A DNA stretch of 64,000 nucleotides from Streptomyces dengpaensis (lineage in GTDB: Bacteria; Actinomycetota; Actinomycetes; Streptomycetales; Streptomycetaceae), in contig NZ_CP026652.1 in the NCBI RefSeq assembly GCF_002946835.1, forward strand, positions 1,674,001 to 1,738,000, written 5' to 3'. Of the stretch, positions 28,939 to 63,385 are shown piece after piece. Position 1 is the first letter of the stretch. Each line of letters opens with the position of its first letter. The translations under genes were made by a program, and so were the position numbers. The notes under the pieces are model-generated. The model ran no database searches and was not told the DNA's origin. It saw only the letters and a list, made by a program, of their open reading frames with translations.

Positions 28939-29012
28939 TGTGCTGAGCAGGCTGGTTGGCCACTGAGCACACTCGTTGGCACTTCCGTGCTCTGTGGGCG
29001 AAGGGCATCCGT

Positions 29013-29942: not shown

Positions 29943-29974
29943 CGGCTGATCACGATCTACAGCTGGAGTACTAG

Positions 29975-32712: not shown

Positions 32713-32715
32713 TAG

Positions 32716-34283: not shown

Positions 34284-34287
34284 CTAG

Positions 34288-34908: not shown

Positions 34909-35293
34909 CAAGGCCCTCGCACGGGGCTGCCCATCGGGGCCGCCCCAGGAGCGCTCGGCCTGAGCGGTCCGCGCTGTCGGTGTGTGTGCCATGGCACTGC
35001 AGGGTCGGCCTCACCGTCTACCTGTCACCTACAGGTGCGGCCTGCGAAGCCGTAACGCTGCCGTGTGACGCCGTGCTCGCCATGAAGCGGGATTCGGAGC
35101 ACCACGCGACATACCCCTGAGCCGATCGGCCAGGCCGAAAGTCCTTTGCCATAACGAATTCGCCCCTCTCTGGTTGTCAGTCCCGCCCCCTAGAATCGGG
35201 CCCGAGGGTCGAGCCTGGCTTCCTGAACGAGTCAACAAGAAGGCAGCAGGCAAAAGCACCCGCAAGCAGACAGAGACGGGGACGGGGAGCCGC
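34909..35293 (+). promoter_or_regulatory. 385-bp upstream region of the BREX operon
   Basis: No gene is seen. The stretch must hold the promoter of pglW. A TAGAAT hexamer at 35191-35196 could serve as a -10 element, but no TTGACA-like box lies at proper spacing. The pglW Shine-Dalgarno GGGGAG is at 35284-35289. Confidence 0.3.
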
Positions 35294-40015: not shown

Positions 40016-40068
40016 CCCTCGTCCCCTGATCTTCTTCCGCTCTCTCCCACTCTCCACAGGAGCCGTAC

Positions 40069-43842: not shown

Positions 43843-43868
43843 GCAGGGCGAGGAGAAGCAGACACACC

Positions 43869-46800: not shown

Positions 46801-47762
46801 GGCGTGGACTGCCAGAGCCGCTGCAGCGGTTGGTTGCCGCCGCGTATGCGGAGATGACCGACCGAGTGTGGGTGCGTGGCGGAGTGCCCATCGAACCCGC
46901 GCCCGCACCACACGAGCTGAAGCGGGACTACGCCCTGCGCGAGCAGCAGCTGCCCAGCGAGAGCGACTGGGACGAGGCACGCAAGCGCTTCGAGCCGATG
47001 CTCGGGAAGCGGGCGCCGCAGTTGCGGCGCGGGCGGATCGTTAACCAGTTCGCCGGGCAGATAAGGCAGGCTGCCGCCGCGCTCGCGCAGGACACCGGAC
47101 GGCTCGTCGGGGAGCTGGAGAAGCATCGCGACTTCCTGCGGCTCAGCGACGACTCGCCCCGGCTCGTTCTCGCCCGGCGTGCGCAGGAGTTGGTCAAGGC
47201 GGTGACCGAGGCCGGGATCGATGCGAAGTCCGTGGTGGACCGGCTCGCCCGCTTCGACCTCGGCGACTTCACCGCACATCGCTTCGGCATGTCGCTGATG
47301 AGTTCCGGGAAGGTCGCCAGCGCTATGCAGAACACCGTCTGGGACCAGTTGAGCCTGGCCGATACCCTCGGGGTGGACGGTGCGGCGGTCCTGGAGCGGG
47401 TGCGGGACGCGGCCGCCGGCGATCCCGGTGACTACCCGGATCTGCCGGGAGTATTGACCGCCGCCGGCCGGGAGGTGCTGTCCCTGCTGAGGTCCCGGCG
47501 GACCGCGGCCGAGCAGCCCCAGCCGCCCGTCGAACTGCCGCCCAGCTCCGAGAGCGTGGATCTGAACACCGGTTCAGCCCACCCGCAGGTACTGCCGGAG
47601 ACAGGGCCGGGGCCTCGTACTCCATCGCGATCCGCAGCCCGCTCCGGTGGCGGGCGTACCACCGCCGCCCGAGCCGCCGCCGAACTGCAGGCGGAGATCG
47701 CGGCGCTCGCGGCCGAGAACCCGAACGCCACCGTCGAGGTCGTCTGGAAGGTCGTCGACTGA
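43869..47762 (+). CDS. pglY: BREX type 2 ATPase PglY (BrxC-related), 1297 aa
   Basis: Large P-loop ATPase. Walker A GSFGSGKS spans residues 85-92; a Walker B-like stretch is DGLVLFMDELILWL near 290-303. The long C-terminal two thirds are mostly helical (EYVRKAAEDRDGQVEVEAKD). ATG 43869 is used; an in-frame ATG at 43878 is nearly equivalent, and GGCGAGGAG lies upstream. Related to BrxC of type 1 BREX, it is thought to act with PglZ in the defence complex. The stop TGA overlaps the pglZ start (TGATG). Confidence 0.94.
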   Translation: MAFMSKNNSRPEDRPLLRELIDIPESVSTSDFVLKLNEAVTPEGAEAALKDYVVTDRLLGNFDEALDLIKSALDSHSSKAAYLHGSFGSGKSHFMAVLYALLSRNQAARARADLDPVRTRHSWLDADDRNFLLVPYHMLGSKSLEQRVLGKYVEHVRKLHPGCPLPQVYLTDGLFEDFAEQRRRNGDERVIEQLADAGGGQEDEWGDSFAWTTELLDQAVAAQEEHDNTKSLDLESPSTPQELRARLVQDLTQTLFPSFARNASEDADGFVSLDKGLGIIAAHAKELNYDGLVLFMDELILWLASRIHDQKFVSREADKITNFVEGADERRAIPVVSFIARQRDLRELVGEEMSGAAEAAVQDTLKFSGGRFDKVVLEDRNLPQIAQARLLKPATDEAEAKVEAAFAEAKKLGPDVWDTLLGHDKSTTGADETAFRRTYPFPPAFMDTLVHISAALQRSRTGLKLMSQLLVDHRDDWRLGQLVPLGDLYPAIAGGGDKAFSGETSVHFEAADKLYRDKLRPYLLKANQVTEDQVEAYRRHPETLNDPQLTARCRDFTGDSRLLQTLLLSALAPSVPALADLTLARLHALNHGSITTRIAGTEVGRLEHKAKEWAVNFPEIKVTGTGPGAVVRLELTGVDLDAVLANAQVHNNQGNRRTKMRALLKDALGVSDGPGGFDAYDVLGLVWKGTERQVEVVFGNVADPDSLPETTLRPSQDDAWRLVVDFPYDEGEFGPMDDLQRLRALREKPGGDSRTLAWLPTHLTDASRADFERLVVIDKALADEARFDAEYARSLNADDKERAKGMLQSQLLVLTERVNLSLRQAYGLAQKQEGVVDLSFENHLVAQQDVPDLRPPLGAPLESAARDLVGKLLAQQYPAHPNLDPDGTGRPVKPAEIKTVFEYVRKAAEDRDGQVEVEAKDRKVMARIAGGLGLGAMREAYYRQSTAWPDHFNAQARRDGVAEPTLVKLSDWSELPDRRGLPEPLQRLVAAAYAEMTDRVWVRGGVPIEPAPAPHELKRDYALREQQLPSESDWDEARKRFEPMLGKRAPQLRRGRIVNQFAGQIRQAAAALAQDTGRLVGELEKHRDFLRLSDDSPRLVLARRAQELVKAVTEAGIDAKSVVDRLARFDLGDFTAHRFGMSLMSSGKVASAMQNTVWDQLSLADTLGVDGAAVLERVRDAAAGDPGDYPDLPGVLTAAGREVLSLLRSRRTAAEQPQPPVELPPSSESVDLNTGSAHPQVLPETGPGPRTPSRSAARSGGGRTTAARAAAELQAEIAALAAENPNATVEVVWKVVD

Positions 47763-50680
47763 TGTCCGACACGGTCACCACAGCCCCTGCGGCGGTCGGC
47801 CCCGCCCGGCTGTCCGCAGGAACCGTCCGTCAGTACGTCGCCGCCCGCAGCCGGCTCGGCGACGGCACAGCCCGCGTACTGCTGTTGCGGGCCGCTCCCT
47901 CTTGGGACGCGCCCGCGGTGCAGCGAACTGCCGGCGGACTGCAGGCACGGGTGGCCGTGGGTCCCTCGGTGCTCGCCGTACACGAGCAGATCCTGGGTCA
48001 CCTTGACGCGCCGGAACCCGTCGATCCCAAGGTCCTGATTGTCCTCACCGATCGCGAGGACACCGACCTCGACCCCGGGCTGCTCGCCCGCGTTTACGGC
48101 GGCAGGATCCGGTCTGTCGACAACTGGGAAGTCGTACAGGAAGCGTTCGACGCGCGCGGCCTCGACGGGCGGCTGCGCGGCGAGAAGTGGGCGGCCGAAG
48201 CACTCCTCGACGCTGCGGCAACCCGGGGCTGGCCCTCGCTCGGTCGGGGCCTGCTCTCCCGCGACGAGGCCCTCACCCGGCTGGCCCGGCGGCGCCTGAG
48301 GATCGGCCGTCATGACACGAATCCGCTTGGCCGTCCGGCCGCACACGACGACGGGGACCGCATCGATCCGGTCGCACTGTTCCAGTGGACCCTCACCCCC
48401 GGCGGCCCGGATCTTCTGCGCGACCTGCGCGGCCCGGAACGGGCCGGTCTGGCCCGCTTCCTCTCGGAACCCGAACAGGGCGGGTCCGCCGGCCGGATCG
48501 TCACCGCCCTGGTAGACGCCGAACACGGGGCGGACGCAGCGGCGTACGCGGTGGTGTGCGCTGCGCTGTGGGGGCACGCGGAAGCCGACCACGACCTGTA
48601 CCGGGCGCGCGGGCGGGCCGAGCGGTGGCTCGGCGAGGCACCGCCTGCCCAGGGTGACGATCTCGACAGGCTTCTGACCTCCTTCGGTCAGAGCGGCGAG
48701 GCGTATGTCCGCAGCCTGGTCGACCGGGGAGAGCACCGGCTCGCCGACCCCGTCCTGACTCGGGCCGCCCAGCTCGTCACTCAATTCGGGGCACAGGCTG
48801 CCGCTTCGGCCAGCCCTCTGCTCGAATCCGGACTCGACACACGCTTCACCACCGCGGGCCACGCACTCTCCGACGGAGATGCAGAGAAGGTCACAGTCGC
48901 CATCACCGCACTGGTCGAGCATGCACTCGCCGCGGACGGCACCAACCAGGCCCGTATCGAGCGAGTACGGATGGCTGCACGGTTGCGGCGGTGGCTCACC
49001 GCCGAGCCCGGATCTGAGATCGCCTCGGTGGCCGACGGCACCGCCCGTCAGATCCGCGAACTCGGCTGGGTGGACCGAGCCTTGGAACACCTGGAGGCGG
49101 GCGGCGACGCAGACGCTGCACTCTCTGATGCGTACAGCCGGATCGGCGCCCAGGTGCGCGAGCGGCGCAAGGAACTGGACCGAACCTTCTCCGAGCGGCT
49201 CGCGGTGTGGACCGCCGATGGCACCGATCCCCGCTCCATGCTCACCGTGGAGAGCTTGCTCAGTCGCGTGGTCACGCCTGTCGTCGAGAGTCCAGGCCGG
49301 CGGGTCCTGCTGCTCCTCATCGACGGTATGAGTGCAGCGATCGCCGCCGAGCTCGGCGAAGAACTGCGTGGCCAGTGGGCCGAGTTCGACCCCCACACCG
49401 AAGCGACCGGCCTACCGGCCCGGCGCGCGGTGGCTGCCGCGCTGCCCACCCTGACCACCATCTCTCGCACCTCGCTGTTCGCGGGCACCCTGATGAAGGG
49501 CGACCAGAACGACGAGAAGCGGCTCTTCCCTCTCCATTCCTGCTGGAACGGGGCCCCGGCTGCCGTATTCCACAAGGACGACCTGCGCGGCCCCGACACC
49601 GGCTCGCCCTTCTCAACCGCTCTCTCCGAGGCGCTGTCCGACGAGCGCACCCACGTCGCGGTCGTCCTCAACACCGTGGACGACCGGCTCGGCAAGGAGC
49701 AGAAGCTCGGCGACGGCACATGGGCGGCGAAGGAGATCGGCGGCCTGGAGCCGCTGCTGCGCGCCGCCCGTGCGAACGATATGACCGTGCTCATCACCTC
49801 GGACCACGGCCATGTCGTGGAGCGGCGCGGCAGCAAGCTCGATGCGGCCAGCGGCACCGTCGGCTCGGCACGCCATCGCACCCCTGGCGGACCTGTGATA
49901 CCCGCCGAGATCGAGCTGTCCGGGCCCCGAGTCGTCTGGCCGGAACCAGGAGCGCGAATCGTCGCCCTGCGCGACCACGACACCCGGTACACCGCGCTAA
50001 AGGCGGGCTATCACGGCGGAGCGACACTCGCCGAGTTCACCATCCCGCTGCTCGCCCTGCTGCCGTTCGGCGCCGAGCCGCCCGCAGGTTGGCGCGAGCT
50101 GGGCGACCCTGCGCCCGTGTGGTGGGAGGAGGGCACCGAGGCCGCAGACGAAGTGGAGGCGGAAGCCGCTTCCGCCCATGACACTGCCACAGTGCGCCCG
50201 CAGCGTAAGCAGTCCAAGAAGTCCGCCCTGCCCGTGCCCGAGGGTGTCATCGGCCTCTTCGGCGAAGAGGAGGTGGCGCCCCCGGCACCGCAGGCACCTA
50301 CTGAGCCCTCGCAGCGGACGACTACCGATCCGGCGAAGGAGACGGCGACTGCACCCGCCCCGGCAGCGGACCCCGCCACCACGCTGGTGGAGCGACTCAT
50401 GTCCACCGAGCTGTACCAGGCGCAGCTGGGCCTGCTCGCCCGTCCGCCGCGCGACAAGACCCTCCTCCCGAAGGCGCTCACCGCACTCGTCGAGGCGGGC
50501 ACCCTGTCGATGACCGCCCTCGCCGAGCGCGCCGGCCAGCCAGCCACCCGCGCCCCCGGCTTCGCCGCGACGCTCGCCCAGCTCCTCAATTACGACGGGG
50601 CCCAGATCCTGGAGATCCTCCCCGACAACCGCACCTTGCGCCTACACCGGGCCCAGCTGGTCGAGCAGTTCGGCCTGTGA
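47762..50680 (+). CDS. pglZ: BREX type 2 alkaline phosphatase-fold protein PglZ, 972 aa
   Basis: PglZ-domain protein, the hallmark BREX component. The phosphatase-superfamily metal sites are visible: RRVLLLLIDGMSAAIAAE with D521, and VLITSDHGHVVERRG with D681, H682 and H684; the nucleophile-like TLTTISRTS lies between. Residues 1-430 are a helical N-terminal region; 780-860 is a charged linker (KQSKKSALPVPEGVIGLFGE), and the C-terminus has a small helical domain. ATG 47762 overlaps the pglY stop. In Streptomyces, PglZ protects against PglX toxicity; that is established for the family. Confidence 0.95.
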   Translation: MSDTVTTAPAAVGPARLSAGTVRQYVAARSRLGDGTARVLLLRAAPSWDAPAVQRTAGGLQARVAVGPSVLAVHEQILGHLDAPEPVDPKVLIVLTDREDTDLDPGLLARVYGGRIRSVDNWEVVQEAFDARGLDGRLRGEKWAAEALLDAAATRGWPSLGRGLLSRDEALTRLARRRLRIGRHDTNPLGRPAAHDDGDRIDPVALFQWTLTPGGPDLLRDLRGPERAGLARFLSEPEQGGSAGRIVTALVDAEHGADAAAYAVVCAALWGHAEADHDLYRARGRAERWLGEAPPAQGDDLDRLLTSFGQSGEAYVRSLVDRGEHRLADPVLTRAAQLVTQFGAQAAASASPLLESGLDTRFTTAGHALSDGDAEKVTVAITALVEHALAADGTNQARIERVRMAARLRRWLTAEPGSEIASVADGTARQIRELGWVDRALEHLEAGGDADAALSDAYSRIGAQVRERRKELDRTFSERLAVWTADGTDPRSMLTVESLLSRVVTPVVESPGRRVLLLLIDGMSAAIAAELGEELRGQWAEFDPHTEATGLPARRAVAAALPTLTTISRTSLFAGTLMKGDQNDEKRLFPLHSCWNGAPAAVFHKDDLRGPDTGSPFSTALSEALSDERTHVAVVLNTVDDRLGKEQKLGDGTWAAKEIGGLEPLLRAARANDMTVLITSDHGHVVERRGSKLDAASGTVGSARHRTPGGPVIPAEIELSGPRVVWPEPGARIVALRDHDTRYTALKAGYHGGATLAEFTIPLLALLPFGAEPPAGWRELGDPAPVWWEEGTEAADEVEAEAASAHDTATVRPQRKQSKKSALPVPEGVIGLFGEEEVAPPAPQAPTEPSQRTTTDPAKETATAPAPAADPATTLVERLMSTELYQAQLGLLARPPRDKTLLPKALTALVEAGTLSMTALAERAGQPATRAPGFAATLAQLLNYDGAQILEILPDNRTLRLHRAQLVEQFGL

Positions 50681-50750
50681 ACCGGCACCGCCGACCCAGC
50701 CACTCGTCGAACCGACGGGACCGTGTCATGCCGGATGGGAGACTGTTCGG

Positions 50751-52103
50751 GTGAACGGGTTTGGATCTTCAGCCTCCGGTGCCGCCGCCCCTGTGGGGGC
50801 CGTACGCCGACGCGCAGTGGTGGACGCGCTGCGGCGCGGCGCCGTCCCCGAGAGCGGACTCGACCTGCTCGCCACCGGACTCGGCCGGTTCGAGCAGGCC
50901 GTCGACGAGGAGCTGGACGCGGTCGCTGCCGGCGGCTCGGTGTTCAAGGCCGTACGCGGTGAGTACGGCTCCGGCAAGACCTTCTTCACTCGGTGGCTCG
51001 GCGAGCGCGCCAAGCGGCGCACCTTTGCCGTGGCCGAGGTGCAGGTGTCGGAGACCGAGACACCCCTGCACAAGCTCGAGACCGTCTACCGGCGCCTCAC
51101 CGAACGCCTGAGCACCGCGAGCTTCCCGCCCAGCGCCCTGCGTCCGGTCGCCGATGCCTGGTTCTACGCGCTGGAAGAGGACGCCCTCGCGGACGGCTCG
51201 GGCGAGGAGAAGCTGCCGCAGGCGGTGGACCGGCTCCTCACCGCCCGTCTGGCCGAGGTGTCCCGGCATGCACCCGCTTTCGCCACCGCTCTGCGCGGAT
51301 ACAAGCAGTCCCTGGACGCCGGCGACGAGGCCACTGCCGCCGCGGTGATGGCTTGGCTCGGCGGCCAACCGCACGTCGCAGCAGCCGCCCGGCGCAGCGC
51401 AGGTGTACGCGGCGACCTCGACCACTTCGGCGCCTTCGGATTCTTGCAGGGCCTGCTCACCGTGCTCCGGGACGCCGGACACGCGGGACTCATCCTCGTA
51501 CTGGACGAGGTGGAAACCCTGCAAAGGGTCCGCTCCGATGCCCGCGACAAGGCACTGAACGCCCTGCGTCAGCTCATCGACGAGGTCCACTCCGGCCGCT
51601 TCCCCGGCCTGTATCTCGTCATCACCGGCACCCCCGCTTTCTACGACGGTCAGCAGGGCGTGCAGCGGCTCGCCCCGCTAGCCCAGCGCCTCGCCACGGA
51701 CTTCACCACCGACCCGCGCTTCGACAATCCGCGGGCCGTCCAGATCCGCTTGCCGGGATTCACCGAGGAATCGCTGGTTGGACTCGGCTCCACCATCCGT
51801 GACCTCTATGCCGAAGGCTCCCAGTCCCCCGATCGCATCAAGCAGCTCGCCGATGACGCGTACCTCACCGACCTGGCTCAAGCTGTGGGCGGGGCCCTTG
51901 GTGGGAAGGTCGGAGTCGCACCGCGGCTGTACCTGAAGAAGCTGGTCGGGGACGTACTCGACCGGATCGACCAGTTCGACGACTTCGACCCGCGCACGCA
52001 CTACAAGCTGACCGTGGCAAGCGGTGACCTCACCGCCACCGAGCGGAACTTCGCCGCGCCGGCACCGGCCGCCTCGGCGGACGATCTCGACCTGGACCTC
52101 TGA
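50751..52103 (+). CDS. brxD: BREX system ATP-binding protein BrxD, 450 aa
   Basis: P-loop ATPase with Walker A GEYGSGKT (70-77) and Walker B-like LILVLDEVETLQR near 245-257. It has no membrane segment. GTG 50751 has GGGAG upstream. Separated from pglZ by 70 bp and followed by brxHI after 68 bp. BrxD and BrxHI are the usual accessory pair of type 2 BREX loci. Confidence 0.9.
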   Translation: MNGFGSSASGAAAPVGAVRRRAVVDALRRGAVPESGLDLLATGLGRFEQAVDEELDAVAAGGSVFKAVRGEYGSGKTFFTRWLGERAKRRTFAVAEVQVSETETPLHKLETVYRRLTERLSTASFPPSALRPVADAWFYALEEDALADGSGEEKLPQAVDRLLTARLAEVSRHAPAFATALRGYKQSLDAGDEATAAAVMAWLGGQPHVAAAARRSAGVRGDLDHFGAFGFLQGLLTVLRDAGHAGLILVLDEVETLQRVRSDARDKALNALRQLIDEVHSGRFPGLYLVITGTPAFYDGQQGVQRLAPLAQRLATDFTTDPRFDNPRAVQIRLPGFTEESLVGLGSTIRDLYAEGSQSPDRIKQLADDAYLTDLAQAVGGALGGKVGVAPRLYLKKLVGDVLDRIDQFDDFDPRTHYKLTVASGDLTATERNFAAPAPAASADDLDLDL

Positions 52104-52171
52104 CGGCCGACTCGCCGAAGCCCCACCCCCCGGAGTCCCGAACTCTGACGACCATCGCAGGAGTCACCGAC

Positions 52172-54328
52172 GTGCAGGAGCAGCCCAGCGGTACCGACCC
52201 GGTGGACCGCCTCGACCCGGTGGTCCTGCACCACATCGTCAACACGCTTAGCTGGCCCGATCTGCGCCCCCTGCAGAAGGCTGCCGTAGGCCCGCTGATG
52301 GATGGCGAAGACGCGATCCTGCTCGCGCCGACCGCCGGCGGGAAAACCGAAGCCGCCACGTTCCCCCTGCTCTCCGCCATGCGGGAGAAGCGTTGGACCG
52401 GCACCTCCGTGCTCTACCTCGCCCCGCTCAAAGCGCTCCTGAACAACCTGGTGCACCGGGTCGACAGCTACGCCCAGTGGCTGGGACGCCGAGCCGCCCT
52501 CTGGCATGGCGACACCCCCGAGTCCGTACGCCGCCGCATCCGCACCGACTCCCCCGACTTCCTGCTCACCACGCCCGAGTCACTCGAAGCGATGCTGATC
52601 AGCGTCAAGACCGACCACGCCCACATGTTGGGAGGGGTACGGGCTGTCGTCGTCGACGAGGTGCACGCCTTCGCAGGGGACGACCGCGGCTGGCACCTGC
52701 TCGCCGTACTGGAACGCCTGGAGCGGCTGGCCGGCCATCGCATCCAGCGCGTCGGCCTCTCAGCCACCGTCGGCAATCCCGACACGCTCCTCACCTGGCT
52801 CCAGGGCGCAAGCCCCGCCGACCGGCCCGGCCGAGTCGTCGCACCCGGCGTCACCCTGCCCGCAACCACCGACGCCGCGAGCGCCACCGAACTCCCGCGC
52901 CCCGCAGGGGAAGTGGAGCTCGATTACGTCGGCTCTCTCGCCAACGCAGCCAAGGTGATCTCCGCTCTGCACCAGGGCGAGAAGCGGCTCGTCTTCTGCG
53001 ACTCCCGCAAACAGGTGGAGGAACTCGGCGCCGCACTCCGCGCCCGCGACGTCACCGTGTTCCTCTCTCATGCCTCGCTCTCCACCGACGAACGCGCCCG
53101 TTCCGAGCAGGCGTTCGCGGAAGCACGCGACTGCGTCATCGTCTCCACCTCCACCCTGGAGCTCGGCATCGACGTCGGCGACCTCGACCGCGTCATCCAG
53201 ATCGACTCCCCCGGCAGCGTGGCCTCCTTCCTGCAGCGAATCGGCCGCACCGGACGCCGCGCCGGCACATCCCGCAACTGCCTGTTTCTCGCTATCCGCC
53301 CCGACATGCTGCTCCAAGCAGCCGGCCTGCTCTCCCTCTGGGCCCGCGGGTGGGTGGAACCCGTCACCCCTCCACCCTCTCCCCGCCATCTCGTCGCACA
53401 ACAACTCCTCGCTGTCACCCTGCAGGAACATCGCATCGGCGACCGACTGTGGCCCGAGCAATGGAACGGCCTCGCACCCTTCGACCGCTCCGCCTCTCCG
53501 CTCCTGTCACACCTGGTCTCCGAGGGCTTCCTCGACAGCGACGGCGGCATGCTGTTCATCGGCCCCGAGGCCGAAAAGCACTTCGGACGACGTCACTTCA
53601 TGGAGCTGACCGCCTCTTTCACCGCACCCCCTGAATTCACCGTGCTCGCGGGGCGTACCGAGATCGGCACCACGGACCCGTCCGTCCTCACTGAGGAGCG
53701 CCAGGGTCCACGGCGGCTGCTCCTGGCCGGCCGCAGCTGGCAAGTCACCTTCATCGACTGGGCACGGCGCCGCGCCTTCGTCGAACCGGTCGAGGACGGT
53801 GGCGTCGCCAAATGGCAGGGCAGCGAGGCCCGCGGTCTCTCGTACGCACTGACCCGTGCCATGCGCGATGTTCTGCTCGGCACCGACCCCGACGTCAAGC
53901 TCACCCGCCGCGCCGCAGCGACCCTCGCCGAACTCCGCATGGACCGCGCATCCCACGAAGTACACCCGGCGGGCACCCTGTTGGTCCGAGACGCAGACGC
54001 CGCCCGCTGGTGGACCTGGGCCGGCTACCGTGCCAACGCCACCCTCGCATCTTCCCTCGGCAACCTCGCAGACCCGGTGCAGCGCCCCACCGACGCCCAC
54101 ATCCGGCTCCGCCAGGACCTCTCCCTCGCAGACTGGAAAGCCGCCCGCGCCGAACTCCCCGACTCCCTCACTCTGCCCACGGTCGACCCTCGCGCCGTAC
54201 GCGGCCTGAAGTTCTCGGTGGCCCTGCCCCTCCGCATCGCCACCGCCACCCTCGCCCAACGCCTCGCCGACTTCGACGGCGCCCTCGCCACAGCCCAGGA
54301 GTCCGTGCGGGTCGAGTGGGGCGGTTGA
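52172..54328 (+). CDS. brxHI: BREX DEAD/DEAH-box helicase BrxHI, 718 aa
   Basis: Superfamily 2 helicase related to Lhr. Walker A APTAGGKT (52-59), DEVH box near 162 (VVDEVHAFAGDDRG), motif III SAT (GLSATVG), and a second RecA domain with VSTSTLELGIDVGDLDRVIQ and IGRTGRRAG. A C-terminal domain of about 270 residues follows. GTG 52172 has CAGGAG at the right distance. It is the last gene of the BREX-2 operon; the next defence operon starts 450 bp later. Confidence 0.92.
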   Translation: MQEQPSGTDPVDRLDPVVLHHIVNTLSWPDLRPLQKAAVGPLMDGEDAILLAPTAGGKTEAATFPLLSAMREKRWTGTSVLYLAPLKALLNNLVHRVDSYAQWLGRRAALWHGDTPESVRRRIRTDSPDFLLTTPESLEAMLISVKTDHAHMLGGVRAVVVDEVHAFAGDDRGWHLLAVLERLERLAGHRIQRVGLSATVGNPDTLLTWLQGASPADRPGRVVAPGVTLPATTDAASATELPRPAGEVELDYVGSLANAAKVISALHQGEKRLVFCDSRKQVEELGAALRARDVTVFLSHASLSTDERARSEQAFAEARDCVIVSTSTLELGIDVGDLDRVIQIDSPGSVASFLQRIGRTGRRAGTSRNCLFLAIRPDMLLQAAGLLSLWARGWVEPVTPPPSPRHLVAQQLLAVTLQEHRIGDRLWPEQWNGLAPFDRSASPLLSHLVSEGFLDSDGGMLFIGPEAEKHFGRRHFMELTASFTAPPEFTVLAGRTEIGTTDPSVLTEERQGPRRLLLAGRSWQVTFIDWARRRAFVEPVEDGGVAKWQGSEARGLSYALTRAMRDVLLGTDPDVKLTRRAAATLAELRMDRASHEVHPAGTLLVRDADAARWWTWAGYRANATLASSLGNLADPVQRPTDAHIRLRQDLSLADWKAARAELPDSLTLPTVDPRAVRGLKFSVALPLRIATATLAQRLADFDGALATAQESVRVEWGG

Positions 54329-54780
54329 TGGCTGAGTAGGTGGTTGCATCGCTCCACTTCTTTACCTCTACGGCCCTCGACAGGGCATCCCGTGCAAGAG
54401 GTATCCCGTTGCCTCGGTCGATAGTCGATCAGGCCACGGTCGATGTGCGCGGGCGCCTCGCCCCGGTTTCTTGGACCTGGGCCAGTCGGTCATGCAGGCC
54501 GATCTGCGGCCGTGTCGTCTATGTGTGGCGAGTCCGGCGCTCCGGCAGGCGGTCGCTAAGCCCCTCTATCGGAGAGGTCTGACAATGCGGCCCTGGCCGT
54601 ATTGGGTTTGCGCCAGCTTTCGTTTCCCACCGTGTTCGTTTCCGGTCACCCCTTCGTGTCACCTTGACCATTGCTCCAGGCCAGGAGTGGGTTCCAGCAC
54701 GATGGGAGCCGGTGACTTTTAGGCCGAAAATGGCTCTTGCCCTCAACCGCTGTCAGTGGGTGGGTTCATCATCATCTGCC
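54329..54780. other. 452-bp gap between BREX and the pPIWI-RE operon
   Basis: No gene is supported. The base composition is less extreme than around it. It must carry the promoter of the pPIWI-RE operon, but I cannot pick out a good -35/-10 pair. Confidence 0.5.
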
Positions 54781-55959
54781 ATGACGCAGGAACCATCACA
54801 GGCCGAGAGGCGACCGTCCACGGTGGGGGCGAGTGCAGGGGCCCCGACGGCAAAGCTCGTCGGTGATCTGACCACGACTGCCTTGCGAGCGGCCCGCGCC
54901 TTTGCCACCCGGCACGAGGAGCCTGCCGCATGGCGTGAGGTGTCACGGATGCACGGGGTGTTCCTGAGCCTGCTCCCGCCTGCGGCAGCTCCCCCGACGC
55001 CCTCAGAATTGATTGCCGCCTTGCGACACCCCATGCGGGCATGGGTCCCGCTGCGGTGGGATCTCGTTCCGAGCGAGCTCGGCTCGTTCAGCGTCTTGGG
55101 CCACGATGACCTGTTGACCGGCGAGGCCATCGAGTACGGATCCGATTACAGCGAGGCCCTCTTCGAGAACCACGAAGCAGGGATCGACTGGGTGCCGCGG
55201 TGGGCTCAGCAGACCTTTGAGAAGGTCGAGCGCTCCATCTATCTGGTTCTCTCGTCCGCGGGGCAGAACGAGTACGTCGCCACACGGCAGATGCTGATCG
55301 AAGTGCCCGCGGGCACCGTTGAGCAGGTCAGCGACGAACTGCACGAGCGCGGAGCCCTGCACACCGAGGCGTACGAACCGCTGCCGCCTGATCGCCAGTT
55401 CGTCTCCGGACAGAATGCCTGGTACGTGCCCTGCCCTGTCTGTCGGTGGCCGATGCACGTGCGCGGCTCCCTGCTGGCGTGCCGGTATCCGCAGCATGTC
55501 GGGCAGTTCACCATCACGCAAGAACACGACGCAGGCGGGGCGCCGCGTGTGCGCGGCCCCTTGCCGACCCTCGCGGTCCACGCAGCCGAGACAGTGTGTC
55601 TGCACGAAGCCGTCTGGCGCTACATCACCGTCCCCGGCATCACCGAGGTGTCACTAATGGGCTGGCTGGCCGAGCAGGCCGGCATCGATGGCGACGCAAT
55701 CACGAAGTGGCCGCACAAGGACCGCTGGGACATCAGCGTCCGGGCTGGCAGCAGCGTCTTCGAGGTGGACCTCAAGGACACCAGGTCCCCGTCCCAGATC
55801 GTCGCCAGGCCGCCACGGGCCCGGCACGTGGTCGTGCCCGACTACCGGTCCTGGCAGGTCGCGCAGCTGCGCCGGTCCCTGCCGGCCGGGCGCTACGAGG
55901 TCCGGACCGTCCGCGCGTTCAAGACCCTTGTCGGCAAGGCTCTCAAGGAGGCGCAGTGA
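54781..55959 (+). CDS. pPIWI-RE-associated restriction endonuclease-fold protein, 392 aa
   Basis: First gene of a three-gene operon. ATG 54781 is preferred over an open-frame start at 54664. A small zinc-binding element is formed by C218, C221 (CPVCRWPMHV), C234 and H239 (CRYPQH). The C-terminal domain has a PD-(D/E)XK-like core: D317 in WDISVRAG, E328, D330 and K332 in FEVDLKD, then DYRSWQVAQLRRSL. This is the nuclease component that accompanies pPIWI-RE proteins, recognised mainly by its position and this fold. It ends in a GTGA overlap with the helicase gene. Confidence 0.8.
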   Translation: MTQEPSQAERRPSTVGASAGAPTAKLVGDLTTTALRAARAFATRHEEPAAWREVSRMHGVFLSLLPPAAAPPTPSELIAALRHPMRAWVPLRWDLVPSELGSFSVLGHDDLLTGEAIEYGSDYSEALFENHEAGIDWVPRWAQQTFEKVERSIYLVLSSAGQNEYVATRQMLIEVPAGTVEQVSDELHERGALHTEAYEPLPPDRQFVSGQNAWYVPCPVCRWPMHVRGSLLACRYPQHVGQFTITQEHDAGGAPRVRGPLPTLAVHAAETVCLHEAVWRYITVPGITEVSLMGWLAEQAGIDGDAITKWPHKDRWDISVRAGSSVFEVDLKDTRSPSQIVARPPRARHVVVPDYRSWQVAQLRRSLPAGRYEVRTVRAFKTLVGKALKEAQ

Positions 55960-58900
55960 ACGGTCGTCCTCTCGCCTCGATGAGCGTGCAGCGCTTGAGC
56001 ACTGTGGCCGCGCTCGCCTTGGCCGCCCGGCTGTTTCCCGACCGCAGTGACGACTCCTTCCGGCACGCGACTGCGATCCGGGACGCGCACTTCCTTGTCT
56101 CCGGGCACACGCACTTGTGGAGGGGCTATCCGGATCTGTCGTCTGAGGACACGCGGCGAGTCACCCGACTCCTGCTGCACCGCACCGGGCGGCTGGCGAT
56201 CCTGAGCGCGTTTCGCCGCGCCGTCGAGGAGCTGTTCAACTCCACCGATATTCCTGAGGGGTTCGCTCTCCTCGATGACGAGCTCTACCTGGTGACTGAG
56301 CCGGTCCACCAGCAGCTTGCCGCGCTGGTGGACGAGGCCCTGGAGATCCTGGATGAGCGTGCCGCCGCGCTCGACGAGGGGCGCAGCCGCCCGCTGGCCC
56401 TTCAGGGGCACTTCCGTATCGGCACGCAGATCCCCGATCCGAGCCGGCCAGGCAACGGAGTCATCCAGGCCCACTACGTCCTCGATGTGTCCCACGTCGA
56501 GACGCCGTTGCCGGACTTCGGCAAGCCTCGCGAGTGCCCCGTGCTGTCCGTGCCGGTCGAGGCCCTTCGGTCGATTGCCGACTCGCTGGATCGAGCCTTC
56601 GGCCAAAGCCACCGACGTCAGAGTCTGGACCGGCTCTTCCAGTACATCCGTCACGCCGACGGCTCCTTGCTCACCGAAAAGGACTTCGTGCTCAACGCCG
56701 GGCTCATCAGGGTGCTCAGCGCGTGCACCGGCTCCGGCAAGAGTGTTCTGGCGAAGTTGCTGGCCGAATGGGGGGTCCTGAACGGCTATGTGACCGGGAT
56801 CGTGGTGCCACGCAATGACAGCGTGCTCGCCTTCACCCACGCACTACGCGTGGAACTCAAAGAGCTGGGTCGCACTGACGCGGTGGTTGTGCCGCTGATC
56901 TCACCGAACAGCATGCAGGCAGAGGCGGAGAAGGCCGCCCGCAGTCACCTGGAGGAGGGCCGGCTCGATGAGGCGGATCAGGCGTTTTCCGAGTTCTCCT
57001 ACGGCTGCGGCATGCAGGCGAGGTCCACCAACACCCAGGACGTCGACCTGTGGCAGCCCGGGCGCGAGCGCTGCTCGGACTTCGAAGGTATCGACGCGGA
57101 CACCGGCGAGGTCCGTCGCCACCGCTGCCCCTGGTACGCCCACTGCGGCAAACACCGCCACCAGCTAGCACTCGACAGCGCGAACATTATCGTCACCAAC
57201 CACATCAACCTCATGTCCGGCCGCCTCCATGTCCCGGTGCTGGCCGAGGGGCAGCAGCGCAACCACATGAGCGTCGAGGAGGCACTGCTGCGCCTCGCCC
57301 ATCTCCTGCTCATCGACGAGGCAGACGCCTTCCAGGCCACCGGGTTCGCCAAGAGCGCCCATCACGTCACCCTCGCCCGCTACGGCAGCAGGCAGCCCAG
57401 TGCCCTCCAAGAACTCCACGACCAGTTCAGCGTCCGAGCCGGGGCGTTGATGTACGAGCTCGAGCGCTACATCCACCCCAAGATCACCCAGGCGCGATTC
57501 TTGTCGGAGAGCTACGTGAGCAACGCGGCCAACGGACGCATCGCCCAACGCGGCCCCAACGAACGCAGCCGCCAGCAACTCGCGCGCCGCCGATTGATCA
57601 TCCCGCGCCGCTGGGATGCGTGGTGTACCGCCCGCCTGTGGCGCACCCCGGAGGATTCCTCCCCCACGCGCGAACAGATCGACACTTTCCGCAAGTTGTT
57701 TAACCCTAGCGAGGATGCTCAGCTCACTGAGTCGACCGTCCCGGCCATCCCCGGTCTCGGCGACAGCAGCTGGGACCACCTGGCCCGGCTGCGCAGTGAA
57801 CTGCTCGACACCACGGCCCTACGCGAAGGCGCCGATCCCGTCTTCGACGGCGCGCATGCGCGGATCGGATCCACCACAACTCCGCTGTTGGATACAGCAC
57901 TTGACGATGACGACCGTGAACTCCTGGTCGACCTCCTGGTGCGACGGGCCTACCTGGAGCAGATCCGCGCCCAGATCGAGTACGTGACCCGCTTCGGAAC
58001 CTCTCTGAAGGCATCCGGTATCACCGCGGCCAACCAGCTGGCCGAGATGCTCGACGACAACAAGCAGTGGCACGCCGCCCCCTACGGCCCGCTTGGCGCA
58101 CCGGTCTTCGGCTTCACCGCCATTCATGACATCGAGGACAAGCATCGCACCGAACTCGCCCTTACCTCCTTTGCCGGCGATCCTCACGCCTACACCGCTC
58201 AGCTCGGCGACACCACCGCGCTGGCACTGTGCGGGCAACGCCGCATCGTGTTGGGACTGTCGGCGACTGCGCACATGCCCGGCGGCACCATGCACCACCT
58301 CATCACTCCACCGACCTGGTACGTGCCCGATGACATCACCGGCTCCCTTGTACTGAAGCCGCTGCCCCTGGTGGACGAGCGCAACAATCCCATCCGGATC
58401 TCCGGCACATCAGACATCCACCGGGACCAGGCCCACCAGCAGATGGGACGCGCCCTGTGGTCCCACATCGTGCAACATCTGAAGAAGCTGGGCAGCCGCG
58501 CGAACACCGCGCACCGGGCCCGCATCCTGGTCGCCTGCACCTCCTACGTCGGCGCCGGCCAGCTCGCCGAAGGCATGATTTCCGCCGGCGCCGACCCGGA
58601 CAGCATTGCCGTCGCCGCCCGCGTCGAGAACGAGAATGCCGTACCGGCGCACTTCCGGCGACGCCCCGCCTGGCATGAGATCCCCTCGGACGCTCTGGAA
58701 CGCTTCCCACACCACAACAGCGCCAAGATCCTCATCGCACCGCTCGCCATTGCCGAACGCGGACTGAACATGGTCGACCACAACGGGCGCTCCCTGGTCG
58801 GCGAAGTCATCCTCGCCGTCCGCCCGATCCCACTGATGGACGAACCCGCCCAGCTCCTCGCGCTCATCTCCAGCCGCGCCTACAGCACCCTGAACCGCTC

Positions 58901-59264
58901 GCAAGATCCCGCCGAAATGCTGCGCGAACTCTCCCGCACCTCCAGCACAGTCCACGAAGAGCTCTTCCGCAGCCACCACTTCTTCCAGTCCCTGCCCAAC
59001 CAGGTGCGCCTGTCGATCGTCGCCGAAATGCTCATCGGCATCATCCAGCTCGGCGGCCGCGTACGGCGAGGCGGCGACCAAGGCGTCCTCTACCTCGCCG
59101 ACCACGCCTTCCACAACACCGCAAGCGGCAGCGACCTGCCGCGACTCATCCGAGAACTGCGCAACGGCTGGGCCAAGACCGGGCAGCTCGAACTCCTCCA
59201 GAACATCTACGGCAACACCCTCACCGCGATCTTCAACTTCGCCGACGAAAGGACCAACCACTGA
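55956..59264 (+). CDS. DinG/XPD-like helicase of the pPIWI-RE system, 1102 aa
   Basis: Superfamily 2 iron-sulfur helicase. GTG 55956 overlaps the nuclease stop (GTGA). Walker A is CTGSGKS (257-263); four cysteines C351, C373, C391 and C397 lie between motifs I and II as in the XPD/DinG [4Fe-4S] domain; motif II is DEAD (454-457, LLIDEADAF), preceded by the NIIVTNHINLM segment typical of DinG. The second motor half holds LGLSATAHMPGG, RILVACTSYVGAGQ, IAPLAIAERGLNM and QLGGRVRRGG. An N-terminal region of about 240 residues is specific to the system. It would unwind DNA or R-loops for the PIWI protein; inference from the partner set. Confidence 0.88.
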   Translation: MNGRPLASMSVQRLSTVAALALAARLFPDRSDDSFRHATAIRDAHFLVSGHTHLWRGYPDLSSEDTRRVTRLLLHRTGRLAILSAFRRAVEELFNSTDIPEGFALLDDELYLVTEPVHQQLAALVDEALEILDERAAALDEGRSRPLALQGHFRIGTQIPDPSRPGNGVIQAHYVLDVSHVETPLPDFGKPRECPVLSVPVEALRSIADSLDRAFGQSHRRQSLDRLFQYIRHADGSLLTEKDFVLNAGLIRVLSACTGSGKSVLAKLLAEWGVLNGYVTGIVVPRNDSVLAFTHALRVELKELGRTDAVVVPLISPNSMQAEAEKAARSHLEEGRLDEADQAFSEFSYGCGMQARSTNTQDVDLWQPGRERCSDFEGIDADTGEVRRHRCPWYAHCGKHRHQLALDSANIIVTNHINLMSGRLHVPVLAEGQQRNHMSVEEALLRLAHLLLIDEADAFQATGFAKSAHHVTLARYGSRQPSALQELHDQFSVRAGALMYELERYIHPKITQARFLSESYVSNAANGRIAQRGPNERSRQQLARRRLIIPRRWDAWCTARLWRTPEDSSPTREQIDTFRKLFNPSEDAQLTESTVPAIPGLGDSSWDHLARLRSELLDTTALREGADPVFDGAHARIGSTTTPLLDTALDDDDRELLVDLLVRRAYLEQIRAQIEYVTRFGTSLKASGITAANQLAEMLDDNKQWHAAPYGPLGAPVFGFTAIHDIEDKHRTELALTSFAGDPHAYTAQLGDTTALALCGQRRIVLGLSATAHMPGGTMHHLITPPTWYVPDDITGSLVLKPLPLVDERNNPIRISGTSDIHRDQAHQQMGRALWSHIVQHLKKLGSRANTAHRARILVACTSYVGAGQLAEGMISAGADPDSIAVAARVENENAVPAHFRRRPAWHEIPSDALERFPHHNSAKILIAPLAIAERGLNMVDHNGRSLVGEVILAVRPIPLMDEPAQLLALISSRAYSTLNRSQDPAEMLRELSRTSSTVHEELFRSHHFFQSLPNQVRLSIVAEMLIGIIQLGGRVRRGGDQGVLYLADHAFHNTASGSDLPRLIRELRNGWAKTGQLELLQNIYGNTLTAIFNFADERTNH

Positions 59265-61885
59265 TGGCCACCGGCCCCACCCGCCTCTACACCGCCGACT
59301 TCCCCCTCAGCCCTGAACTGATGGGACAGGTGTGGTTCTACCCGCTCACCCCCGAGTTCGAGGACTTGTGGGAAGTCTGCGAACGCCAGTGGGACCCCGA
59401 CGAAGGCTTCCGCACCCCGCACGGTGCCCTGCGCGTGGCCCTGGGCACCGCCACCGGACGCATGATCGTCTTCACGATCTCGCGGCGACGCAGCACCGGG
59501 CCCGACGAGGCACAGAGCCTGATCGTCGCCGACGGCCCCCTAGATGCCAAGCTCACCAAGCGCTGCTTCGACACGTGGCAGAAGTTGCACTTCCCCAACC
59601 TCAAGCACCAACTCCTCAGCGAGCACATCGACTTCCGCAACACGGCCTGCCGCCCCCTCACCGACGTCCTGCAGCGCGACGACGGCGGCTACATCACCGG
59701 GCCCTGGTGGTGGAAGGACGCCGCAGGCTGGGCCGCCATCCAGCAACTGGCAGCCCGCCCCATGACCGACCAGCAGCACCCCGACCAGCCAGCCACGTCC
59801 TTCCGAGTGGCGCTCGCCCACGACGCCAAACGACTCGTAGCCTGGGACTACCCCTACTACCGCACCATCTACCAGGGCCGAGCCAACGAACGCACCGGCT
59901 GGGCGATGGCCTACGTCTCGGTCACCGGAGAGACCCAACGCGGCCTGCCCGACCCCATCTTGCGCTTCGACTGCCACGTCACCCGCGTCGCCGACCACTG
60001 GCGCAACGTCAAAACCGTCATGCTCAAGCACCCCCAGTTCGACACCCTGCTGCGCGTCCCGGTCCGCCATCTCCCCCACACCGGCCCCGACGGCGAAAAG
60101 ATCACCGACAAGGACGGGCGCCTCACCTGGAAGACAACTTTCCGCGGACACACCGCGGCCATCGTCCAGGCGTGCGGCCTCAAACCCGTCACGTTGCCCG
60201 TCAACGCCGACGGCGCTCTCGACCATGTCCGGGCGGTCTTCCGCAACAAGGGCAAGCACCTGGTCGGCAAGGGCGTCGGCGCCTACTTCACCCTGCGCAT
60301 GACCACCCACATCGCCGAGTCCCTCGGCGTCCAACCGATCATCTACGACGCCTCCCGCCACACCATCCCGGGCAAGAGCATCACCAGCGGCCCCATCCCC
60401 CGCGGCAAGCTGCCACAGGCCGTGGAGGCAGCCGGATGGAAGTCAGTGCGCCTGGTGGCGGTGTACTCCGCAGACAGCACCCCGCACCGGATCCTGCGTC
60501 AACTCCGGGCGGACTACGGGATTGCGACACCTGCCGCACTGGCCGACCGGGCAACGGCTTTCGATGGGCAGATCGTCGACGTCGCCCCCACCATCACACT
60601 GGAATTCCGGAAGATCCCCGAGCTGACCATGCACGGCCGCCATGACCGCGCAGCACTCATCCGCAGCCACAGCGCCCTCCAGGTCAGCGACCCCGACCAA
60701 CTCATCGCCGTCATCTGCGAGACCACCTGGGACGGCAAGCCCGTCCCCCACGACGGCAAGCCCGCCACCCGCAAGGCACTCGGAGCCACCAGGATCGTGA
60801 GCCAGTTCCTCGTCAAGACCGACGCCCCGCCGCGCGAAGAGGACACCGACTTTCCCGCCAGCGCGGCCCTGCGCCACATCTTCCAGGACGCCGGCATCAT
60901 CGACGACCGTCTCTCTCGTGCCATCTGCGCCACGCCCGAGGTGTCCATGGACGCGCCGCTGACAGAGCCCGTAACCGTGGTCGGCATCCACATGCGCCGA
61001 CACGTCTACAAGCGAGTACGAGGCCAGGGCTACCGCAGCCCCAAACTCGTCGCCTGCCTCGTCGCGATGCACTTCACGCCCGACGCTCAAACCCCGCCGT
61101 ACACCGAGATGTACCAAAACGGGCAATGGCTGCGCATCGCGGAGGGACGTGCCCTCTTCCACTCCTCAGAGATCGGCAGCGAACGCTGGGGACGCAACGG
61201 CGACGGTGCTCGGGCCGTCCGAGACCACATCGAGACCGCCCTCGACAACCTCGTCCTGCCCGAGGCCAGCAACCGTGTCGTCCTCGTCCTGGACAAGGAA
61301 GGCAGCCGCAGCATCTACCCGGCCCTCGACGACAATCCCTTCCGCACCGCGCCGCACCCCGGACGCGGTCTCGCTCACGACGGCATCGACGTCGCCACCG
61401 TACGCATCGCCTTCGGACACCATGCAGCACGGCCGGCAACCGTCTACCGCGACGGTGTCGACAACCTCACCACCATGAACCCCACCTACCGGCGCACTCT
61501 CATCTTCGAGAAGCATCACCCCCACGCGACCGTGTGGATGCTCACGCAACAATCACGCCAGCAAGCCGGAAACTCGCCCATGCTGCGCGAGGGCAACAAA
61601 CGAACCCGCGACGACTTCAGCACCCTCACCTACAACCCCATGAACAAGGACCTCCACGCCACCAGCCGCATCGAGCTCACCGTCCCCACGCCAGGCAGCT
61701 GGCGCCCCGGCGACCTCGTCGCGTTCATCGCCCGGCAATGCGACCAGGCCGTCGCGTGGGATCACCGCACGCTACGTCCGGCCCCGCTCCATCTCGCCTA
61801 CAAGACCGACCAGGACCATCCCGACTTCCGCAGCCACGATCCTGGTGACGGCGAGGCCCAAGATGACGAAGATGACCTGTCATAG
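59264..61885 (+). CDS. pPIWI-RE family PIWI protein, 873 aa
   Basis: Prokaryotic PIWI-domain protein of the RE subgroup, an Argonaute relative. ATG 59264 overlaps the helicase stop (TGATG). The N-terminal 450 residues are the family's own region (LTPEFEDLWEVCERQWDPDE, then HVTRVADHWRNVKTVMLKHP). The C-terminal RNase H-like half includes VSMDAPLTEPVTVVGIHMRR, VVLVLDKEGSRSIYP near 670, VATVRIAFGHHAARPATVYR near 710 and RRTLIFEKHHPHATVWMLTQ near 744-765. I cannot assign catalytic residues by eye, so whether it cuts or only binds is open. Last gene of the operon. Confidence 0.85.
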   Translation: MATGPTRLYTADFPLSPELMGQVWFYPLTPEFEDLWEVCERQWDPDEGFRTPHGALRVALGTATGRMIVFTISRRRSTGPDEAQSLIVADGPLDAKLTKRCFDTWQKLHFPNLKHQLLSEHIDFRNTACRPLTDVLQRDDGGYITGPWWWKDAAGWAAIQQLAARPMTDQQHPDQPATSFRVALAHDAKRLVAWDYPYYRTIYQGRANERTGWAMAYVSVTGETQRGLPDPILRFDCHVTRVADHWRNVKTVMLKHPQFDTLLRVPVRHLPHTGPDGEKITDKDGRLTWKTTFRGHTAAIVQACGLKPVTLPVNADGALDHVRAVFRNKGKHLVGKGVGAYFTLRMTTHIAESLGVQPIIYDASRHTIPGKSITSGPIPRGKLPQAVEAAGWKSVRLVAVYSADSTPHRILRQLRADYGIATPAALADRATAFDGQIVDVAPTITLEFRKIPELTMHGRHDRAALIRSHSALQVSDPDQLIAVICETTWDGKPVPHDGKPATRKALGATRIVSQFLVKTDAPPREEDTDFPASAALRHIFQDAGIIDDRLSRAICATPEVSMDAPLTEPVTVVGIHMRRHVYKRVRGQGYRSPKLVACLVAMHFTPDAQTPPYTEMYQNGQWLRIAEGRALFHSSEIGSERWGRNGDGARAVRDHIETALDNLVLPEASNRVVLVLDKEGSRSIYPALDDNPFRTAPHPGRGLAHDGIDVATVRIAFGHHAARPATVYRDGVDNLTTMNPTYRRTLIFEKHHPHATVWMLTQQSRQQAGNSPMLREGNKRTRDDFSTLTYNPMNKDLHATSRIELTVPTPGSWRPGDLVAFIARQCDQAVAWDHRTLRPAPLHLAYKTDQDHPDFRSHDPGDGEAQDDEDDLS

Positions 61886-62350: not shown

Positions 62351-63385
62351 TCACGGCAGCACGAAGGTCACGCTATGCCTCGCCCGTGTCACTGCGACGT
62401 AGAACTTCGCCTGCTCATTGAGGACGTTGAAGTCGCGGGTCTTGTAGTAGGTGATCATGGGCTTCGTCGGGAAGATGAGCACCCGGTCGTAGGTGCTGCC
62501 CTTCGAGGCGCCCATGTTTATCGCCTCAAGATCGCCCGTCTTGGTACGCCGGTCCCACCGCAATACGACCGGCGAGTACTGCGCTACGTACCCCGGCACG
62601 TCCGACCCTCGGATGTCGAAGATGCCGTCATGCCCTGTCAGTTCCGCGTTCTTCGAGATGGTGCGGGGCAGCTTCGGGTAAAGGTCGTCTGCGAAGTCGC
62701 AGATTGCCTGGTTGCAGCGATAACTCTCCACGCGGCTATCGATGACGCAGACGTCCATGCGCTCGTTGAACCAGTCGACGATGGCGCTTCCCCGGTACCG
62801 CCTGTTCCTCGTGGCGGTATTGGTCGCGAACGTCGCCTGTCGGGGGTCACCCACCATCGTGAGACCGACAGGCGACTTCATCAGAGCGTCCAGTAGATCG
62901 AGGTCGTACCCTGCCATATCTTGGATTTCGTCGACGTAGATGTGGTCGTACATCCCCGTAAGGCGGTCCACGACCCTGCCACCGCTTCGCTCGTTGGCCT
63001 CGTGCGCCAAGGCCGCGACCTCATTGCGGTACACGGCGCCAGCGGTATCGAGGTAGTACTGCTTCGGCTTGTCCTTGCGGGTGAACCGGGCCCGCTGCCC
63101 CAGGAAGTTAAGGCCACCCATCAGGCCGGTCTCGCCCAGAACGCAACTCTGGTAGGGGCGAGCGCACTGGTTCATCAGGAAGGTGAACCAGCCCATGACC
63201 GTGACGTGACTCGGCAGGATGCCGGTGCCTTCGCTCAGCCTGTTCACAATCTGGCTGAGGTTCTCATTGGTGTAGGTCGTCACAAGGACCCGCTTCGTCG
63301 GGTCACCGAGGACCCGGTCGATAATGTGCTGGGTCTTGTGCGAGCCGGCCGCCGCGATGATGGCCTGGTTGTTAGGAGACCGCAT
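62351..63385 (-). CDS. gajB: Gabija helicase-like protein GajB, 344 aa
   Basis: UvrD-like superfamily 1 protein. Walker A AAAGSHKT (11-18, with His where Gly is usual), motif II YVDEIQDMAG near 150, GDPRQATF near 179 and motif VI VAVTRARHSVTF at the very C-terminus. It is compact for the family because nothing follows motif VI. ATG 63385 overlaps the end of gajA by 14 bp, so the two are coupled. In Gabija, GajB senses or amplifies nucleotide/DNA-end signals and acts with the GajA nuclease. Confidence 0.88.
   Translation of the reverse strand: MRSPNNQAIIAAAGSHKTQHIIDRVLGDPTKRVLVTTYTNENLSQIVNRLSEGTGILPSHVTVMGWFTFLMNQCARPYQSCVLGETGLMGGLNFLGQRARFTRKDKPKQYYLDTAGAVYRNEVAALAHEANERSGGRVVDRLTGMYDHIYVDEIQDMAGYDLDLLDALMKSPVGLTMVGDPRQATFATNTATRNRRYRGSAIVDWFNERMDVCVIDSRVESYRCNQAICDFADDLYPKLPRTISKNAELTGHDGIFDIRGSDVPGYVAQYSPVVLRWDRRTKTGDLEAINMGASKGSTYDRVLIFPTKPMITYYKTRDFNVLNEQAKFYVAVTRARHSVTFVLP

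Follow-up and report, generated by a model that had tools for sequence, protein, structure and literature searches.

A stretch of 64,000 nucleotides from Streptomyces dengpaensis (contig NZ_CP026652.1, positions 1,674,001 to 1,738,000; the window, meaning this whole stretch) carries at 54781-61885 what, judged by its sequence, is a complete pPIWI-RE three-gene operon (the triad) and a member of an already described predicted defence family. The reading that we favour, with a probability of roughly 55%, is that this is a pPIWI-RE defence operon of the clade that we call clade II, docked as an accessory module downstream of a BREX-2 operon, in which the PIWI protein would be the sensor, the DinG-type helicase the remodeller and the restriction endonuclease (REase) the effector. 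Family membership, conserved residues, purifying selection, and the presence of BREX-2 upstream and Gabija downstream speak for it. The three genes are as follows.

54781-55959, + strand: nuclease gene (domain Y, zinc ribbon, PD-(D/E)xK REase), 392 residues, ATG start
55956-59264, + strand: DinG-type superfamily 2 (SF2) helicase gene, 1102 residues, GTG start
59264-61885, + strand: pPIWI-RE protein gene, 873 residues, ATG start

The open reading frames (ORFs) overlap by 4 bases (nuclease and helicase) and by 1 base (helicase and PIWI), in agreement with the coordinates and overlaps of the first-pass annotation, and their order of REase, DinG and pPIWI-RE with overlapping ends is the one by which the three-gene system is recognised. 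Burroughs, Iyer and Aravind described such a triad in 2013 (PMC3702460), and for this reason ours counts as a member of a known predicted family; that the combination had been predicted as a defence system from comparative genomics, as first annotated, is consistent with the portion of their paper available to us. That portion gives the same gene order with overlapping ends, a protein composed of domain Y, a zinc ribbon and a REase, a cysteine-rich DinG preceded by a helical domain Z, and an X-MID-PIWI protein. The window triad shares the order, the overlaps, the Y/zinc ribbon/REase composition, a region preceding the DinG part, and the X and PIWI domains, with MID weak. The available portion of a second paper (PMC6299218) contains no occurrence of the term PIWI-RE. 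The profile check that had been proposed for the three proteins gave matches to pPIWI-RE-specific families for all of them (Pfam, PADLOC); NCBIfam gave no match for any of the three at E 0.01, and PDB sequence searches with the three proteins found nothing.

Relative to the counterpart genes of a second species (genome G1021), the ratios of nonsynonymous to synonymous divergence (dN/dS) were 0.17 for the REase, 0.10 for the DinG and 0.15 for the PIWI gene, with dS of 0.15-0.22, which points to purifying selection on each of the triad genes. A non-defensive set, made up of an ordinary DinG, a repair nuclease and a degenerate PIWI-like gene, would suit the absence of the first RNase H aspartate described below, but it conflicts with the pPIWI-RE-specific matches of all three genes, with the published gene order and with this purifying selection, and we consider it very improbable. 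A sigma-70-type scan of 54200-54850, upstream of the triad, found no promoter-like site and a single terminator-like one, at 54451, against 0.4 expected.

The nuclease matched the Pfam families REase (PF18154, 1.5e-14) and Y (PF18156, 8.6e-10), both above the curated cut-offs, and its parts were placed as follows.

54862-55317, + strand: domain Y, residues 28-179 (Pfam match), R169 in 18/18 aligned nucleases
55432-55497, + strand: putative zinc ribbon, residues 218-239, C218, C221 and C234 in 18/18
55636-55953, + strand: REase domain, residues 286-391 (Pfam match), with E289, D317 and D330-x-K332

Alignment of 18 nucleases revealed Y165, R169, C218, C221, C234 and D330 as invariant and E289, D317 and K332 as kept in 17, with a motif of the form D-x12-D-x-K. 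The cysteine cluster, whose fourth ligand varies among these sequences, may be read as a zinc ribbon following PMC3702460, the available text of which also assigns a conserved arginine to domain Y. The family matches, motif residues and three cysteines bear out the original call of a PD-(D/E)XK-like nuclease with a zinc ribbon. A structure predicted from a three-sequence alignment was too poor to use (mean predicted local distance difference test score, pLDDT, 37.5), although its last 100 residues, in the REase domain, averaged 50-77; a fold search with this model gave no match at E <= 0.001, the best being Cap4 at 0.057, from which nothing is drawn.

The helicase matched PADLOC PprDinG at 4.6e-179 over residues 35-1097 and type IV DinG far more weakly (2.6e-7), while no general DinG family of Pfam, PADLOC or NCBIfam matched at 0.01. 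A match to housekeeping DinG only, one of the two outcomes that the first-pass annotation had named as refuting its view, thus did not occur. In an alignment of 18 helicases, our own sequence included, motif I (G261-K262), motif II (D454-E455-x-D457), S769 and Q1031-x2-G-R-x2-R were present in all 18, as were two further features.

57006-57146, + strand: four-cysteine iron-sulphur (Fe-S) region, C351, C373, C391 and C397, in 18/18
55956-56690, + strand: N-terminal region in the position of domain Z, residues 1-245, present in all 18

The four cysteines sit between motifs I and II, as expected from the description of a DinG/XPD-type helicase. The N-terminal region of about 240 residues had been described as extra; the region itself is real, but the word extra does not hold, since all 18 helicases have one there, which excludes it as a peculiarity of our gene. 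Because PMC3702460, in its available portion, also puts domain Z at this place, we regard the region as a family feature in position; no Pfam Z match was obtained for it at 0.01.

A tree of 36 distinct DinG rows, rooted at the midpoint and subject to the method's caveat of long-branch joining, split into 15 and 21 rows separated by long branches with support of 100/100. By this tree the pPIWI-RE systems of the Streptomycetaceae form two deep clades, with the window triad in clade II, where it belongs to a fully supported group of five (window, G1021, L032, L033 and L071). Clades were assigned elsewhere with two clade-specific PIWI profiles to loci scoring at least 80 bits, and 109 loci of the family sample were so classified by hand count, 69 as clade I and 40 as clade II, exclusive of fragments, broken genes (including L052, clade II by profile), the duplicate contig G097:C39, and G176, G056:C8, G074:C4, G191 and G197, whose sequences were not fetched. 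Clade I triads, such as L043, L045 and that of a Nostoc plasmid (L066), have the same three genes, share the invariant residues of the helicase, agree closely in those of the nuclease, and differ from clade II in the long DinG-tree branch (100/100) and in a tryptophan at the first RNase H position in 57/71 rows. For the N-terminal helicase region, comparison with a clade I profile gave a weak likeness (local p 0.009, global p 5.5e-4, reversed control 0.39) with six clade II rows only roughly cut, one of them at residue 179; the corresponding regions of two clade II groups matched each other at 4.8e-12.

Close relatives of the window triad were found in Streptomyces sp. NRRL S-340 (L032) and Wenjunlia vitaminophila DSM 41686 (L033), the three proteins being 75-82% identical and in the same order and orientation. 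The window holds an intact triad in Streptomyces, a cultivable genus, with named relatives at 77% identity. Matches to pPIWI-RE occurred in 111/394 sampled genomes of the family and 111/392 of the genus, the two samples overlapping. Relatives of the PIWI protein were also matched in 16 Streptomyces plasmid records, 3 of them over at least 80% of the query, and scans of viral contigs with the PIWI and helicase proteins found no relative. A phylum-wide search with the PIWI protein matched 2/396 genomes, our own and a short stretch in G009, and says little on the spread of the system because it missed relatives found by the Pfam family.

The third protein matched RNaseH_pPIWI_RE (PF13032, 1.7e-35) and pPIWI_RE_X (PF13111, 8.2e-21), both above the curated Pfam cut-offs, and PADLOC PprPIWI at 6.9e-104. 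The gene starting at 59264 thus falls within the PIWI/RNase H superfamily and encodes a PIWI-RE protein, as annotated, so that the other refuting outcome named in the first-pass annotation did not occur either. Three domains were placed on it.

59312-60376, + strand: X domain, residues 17-371 (PF13111)
60683-60910, + strand: MID domain, residues 474-549, with K499 and Q514 (PF18157 at 2.5e-4, below its cut-off)
60980-61825, + strand: RNase H-like PIWI domain, residues 573-854, with H576, D677, R714, E804 and H843 (PF13032)

To describe conservation in this protein, we aligned 123 distinct rows of at least 300 residues, 71 of clade I and 52 of clade II, with only identical rows removed and all but two Nostoc plasmid rows from Streptomycetaceae. 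The most conserved positions were D497 (122/123), K499 and H843 (121 each), Q514 (118), E804 (112) and R714 (98). K499 and Q514 may be read as residues of a pocket for the 5' end of a guide, kept across the PIWI rows. The MID Lys/Gln pair and the place of a C-terminal PxPxH look like those of classical Argonautes (Ago2 and long prokaryotic Argonautes). Unlike these, the window protein has no first catalytic aspartate, an X domain in place of PAZ, and a helicase and a REase as partners. Aspartate was found in 0/123 rows at the first RNase H catalytic position, a column chosen by sequence pattern and comparison with Argonaute and presumably the place of the first catalytic Asp of Argonaute; here it is H576. 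After thinning at 90% identity, none of the remaining 63 and 38 rows had an Asp there either.

The clades differ at this position, which is histidine in 47/52 clade II rows as against tryptophan in 57/71 and histidine in 10/71 clade I rows. G574, R578, W622, R835, H843 and H852 were present in 52/52 clade II rows, D849 in 51/52 and D677 in 37/52 (Ser in 10/52), and H576, D677 and H843 occurred together (H-D-H) in 37/52. By this alignment the PIWI protein lacks the make-up of a canonical DEDX slicer, but its pocket is conserved in a way of its own. According to the available text of PMC3702460, catalytic residues are retained in only a subset of pPIWI-RE proteins, and a conserved Arg and Glu, the latter absolutely conserved, give the group its name; we infer that R714 and E804 are this pair. 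E804, so identified, is Gln or Arg in 11/52 clade II rows.

These residues also bear on another explanation, in which the clade II PIWI protein is itself a cutter with a remodelled metal site formed by H576, D677 and H843, to which D849 and H852 lie close in sequence, and the REase acts as a second cutter. The frequencies of these three residues, the near-complete retention of G574, R578, R835, H852 and D849, and the Trp that clade I has instead at the first position would all fit such a site, and if the H-D-H site does bind metal, the Argonaute active site would here have been remodelled in an unusual way. However, the set is not indispensable, since 10/52 rows have Ser at the place of D677 and 5/52 lack H576; moreover, histidine occupies the first place in some clade I rows as well (10/71), and the equivalence to the Argonaute catalytic positions is presumptive. 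We consider a cutting PIWI protein unlikely.

A further explanation dispenses with guide loading: the PIWI protein would recognise a DNA or RNA end or a hybrid by its structure, and the helicase and REase would restrict without programming in the manner of Mcr or type I systems. In keeping with this, no Rfam family reached its gathering score anywhere in the window, which leaves no described RNA gene beside the triad, and there is no methylase gene within the triad; a tRNA search also found none. Against it stand the nearly invariant K499 and Q514 of the MID domain, and guides could be encoded elsewhere, so that we hold unprogrammed restriction to be doubtful.

The favoured reading of PIWI sensor, DinG remodeller and REase effector extends a proposal of 2013, in which PIWI senses a DNA-RNA hybrid, DinG is recruited and the REase cuts the DNA (PMC3702460, in the portion available). 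In our version, the PIWI protein would hold in its MID pocket either a short guide or a nucleic-acid 5' end and would sense invading hybrids or transcribed structures; the DinG-type helicase would be brought in for unwinding or translocation, and the DNA cut would be made by the REase. The analysis shows the gene content and order, the conserved residues of nuclease and helicase with the cysteines, the retained MID residues, the missing first RNase H aspartate, purifying selection and, in two species, a block shared with BREX-2. We infer the defensive role, the guide binding, the assembly into one complex, the order of the steps and the REase as effector. Several points weigh against this reading. 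The match to MID_pPIWI_RE (PF18157) stands at 2.5e-4, below its own Pfam cut-off. Despite the loss of the first Asp, clade II rows often retain D677 and without exception H843, which hints that the RNase H site may not be dead. The PIWI structure predicted from a three-sequence alignment was unusable (mean pLDDT 29.3), so that the active-site positions rest on alignment and on comparison with Argonaute residues. Finally, we found no experiment on any pPIWI-RE system within a limited coverage of the literature. Mutation of the conserved residues listed here could separate the sensor, helicase and nuclease roles.

The triad follows a BREX-2 operon.

35174-54328, + strand: BREX-2 operon (pglW, pglX, pglY/brxC, pglZ, brxD, brxHI), directly upstream of the triad

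PglW, PglZ, BrxD and BrxHI were assigned by library matches, and 40069-43842 and 43869-47762 are, by their position, the putative pglX and pglY/brxC. BrxHI ends at 54328, 452 bases before the triad, so that the first-pass annotation was right to put the triad directly after BREX-2, although in relatives this adjacency is optional. We found it in 5/44 sampled genomes matching both families (hand count; 28 from the family sample and 16 from the genus sample, with some matches partial and many on different contigs, so that contig breaks may conceal some adjacencies). PglZ of BREX-2 was matched in 79/394 family genomes, 73 of them above the cut-off, and the BREX-2 count in the genus sample omits 11/91 newly found genomes with a pPIWI match; in ten of these the match was only partial or weak, and the eleventh is G800, which has 1,300 contigs. 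The adjacent genomes are our own, G1021, G207 (L059; gap of about 380 bases, same strand), G211 (L060; about 270 bases, convergent) and G850 (L097; triad about 3.3 kb downstream of BrxHI on the same strand, with an ORF for a helix-turn-helix protein and a second predicted ORF between). Their helicases are only 27-37% identical to ours, with the exception of G1021 at 96%, and the five genomes therefore represent four separate joinings (window with G1021, G207, G211 and G850). All five triads belong to clade II, and three of the four joinings lie directly behind BREX-2, with G850 nearly so. The probability that four of four joinings would be of clade II by chance is about 2%, given 40/109 clade II loci, although this link was drawn post hoc.

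These cases exclude the adjacency as a feature unique to the window, and it is likewise excluded as obligatory: L032 and L033 showed no BREX-2 match within about 5.5 kb upstream and 10 kb downstream of the triad, and in G1076, with a similar triad, about 1.7 Mb separate BREX-2 from the triad. Comparable triads, some next to BREX-2 and others not, allow the question of cooperation to be put. A clade I triad of G257 lies about 40 kb from BREX-2. Nineteen control BREX-2 loci contained no matched triad within about 7-16 kb behind BrxHI, the locus matches listed being those with E up to 1e-6 over more than 120 columns. For 12 of these loci the scan covered one or two of the genes that follow BrxHI: restriction- or defence-like genes were present in 5/12, and the other 7/12 had none among the genes scanned. 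The genes found in this slot were as follows.

L084: Druantia DruF-like
L085 and L091: Schlafen-type helicase
L091 and L092: type IV REase or HNH
L080: MTES_1575 REase

Because other restriction-type genes occupy the same slot, the place behind BrxHI is a docking site not reserved for pPIWI-RE, and accessory docking is likelier than obligatory coupling. BrxHI of G850 is 87% identical to that of the window, compared with 68% for BrxD and 32% for PglZ. These values point to exchange at the 3' end of BREX-2, which may tie that case to the window, and the four joinings are for this reason perhaps not fully independent.

A working partnership, in which the triad cooperates with BREX-2, for example by using PglX methylation to distinguish the cell's own DNA from incoming DNA, could account for the recurrence of adjacency in clade II and for the block shared with G1021, in which three BREX-2 genes have dS values (0.14-0.29) similar to those of the triad. 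Most triads, however, lie elsewhere, as the 5/44 count, L032, L033 and G1076 illustrate, and the convergent arrangement in G211, the two predicted ORFs in G850, the other occupants of the slot in control loci and the possible 3'-end exchange linking the cases also count against it. We judge such cooperation improbable.

Window positions 35143-62237 matched G1021 in four pieces of 88, 91, 93 and 93% DNA identity, with breaks mainly within pglX, so that one block of about 27 kb comprising BREX-2 and the triad is present in two species, that of the window (G000) and that of G1021. The PglX proteins (40069-43842 and L070) are 76% identical, as against 92-98% for the other BREX-2 and triad proteins compared, and because of this disparity the specificity gene was likely exchanged. 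A 20-kb backbone stretch of our genome, the one sampled, was 70-85% identical to G1021 in its longer pieces, and window positions 20000-35150 and 1-10000 gave no more than dispersed matches in that genome, of at most 834 bases and with few exceptions at other places of the chromosome. The simplest reading is that BREX-2 and the triad moved horizontally together, and recently. Two left-flank pieces, 27244-27551 (68%) and 34296-34368 (82%), nevertheless lie beside the block in G1021 too, and sequence that follows the Gabija genes also adjoins it there. Since these flank pieces adjoin the block, both genomes may share a single island site whose other contents have turned over, and the case for a wholly new insertion site is weakened. 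A more speculative extension, to which we give a low probability, sees clade II as a functionally distinct branch. Its RNase H pocket would have been rebuilt as His-Asp-His (H576, D677 and H843, with D849 and H852 near), which would leave the PIWI protein neither dead nor a canonical slicer, and its triads would have docked time and again at the BREX-2 3' end, moving together with BREX-2 as a single defence cassette.

Downstream of the triad lie the Gabija genes and a direct repeat.

62351-63385, - strand: Gabija GajB, following the triad
63372 onward, - strand: Gabija GajA, cut by the end of the window and continuing into L099
62108-62237 and 67209-67339: imperfect direct repeat (131 columns, 88%) flanking the Gabija stretch, the first copy just after the triad

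In G1021 a single copy of the repeat sequence lies next to the triad, and the locus searched there (L069) gave no match to Gabija; it looks as though the Gabija stretch was gained or lost between the direct repeats.

Between BrxHI and the nuclease gene, about 94 bases (54346-54440) have no counterpart in G1021. Our own genome contains a second BREX-2 PglZ gene outside the window (G000:C1:2098141-2101002; flank L087). A row of large ORFs at 13071-19228, of which those scanned (604, 583 and 711 residues) had no Pfam match and the first a weak PADLOC SspD match (8.3e-8), is possibly another defence cluster. The ORFs at 27622-28938, 30101-31471 and 32890-34131 all match the same relative (L037, 2423-3865) at 26-27% identity and for that reason are probably paralogues.

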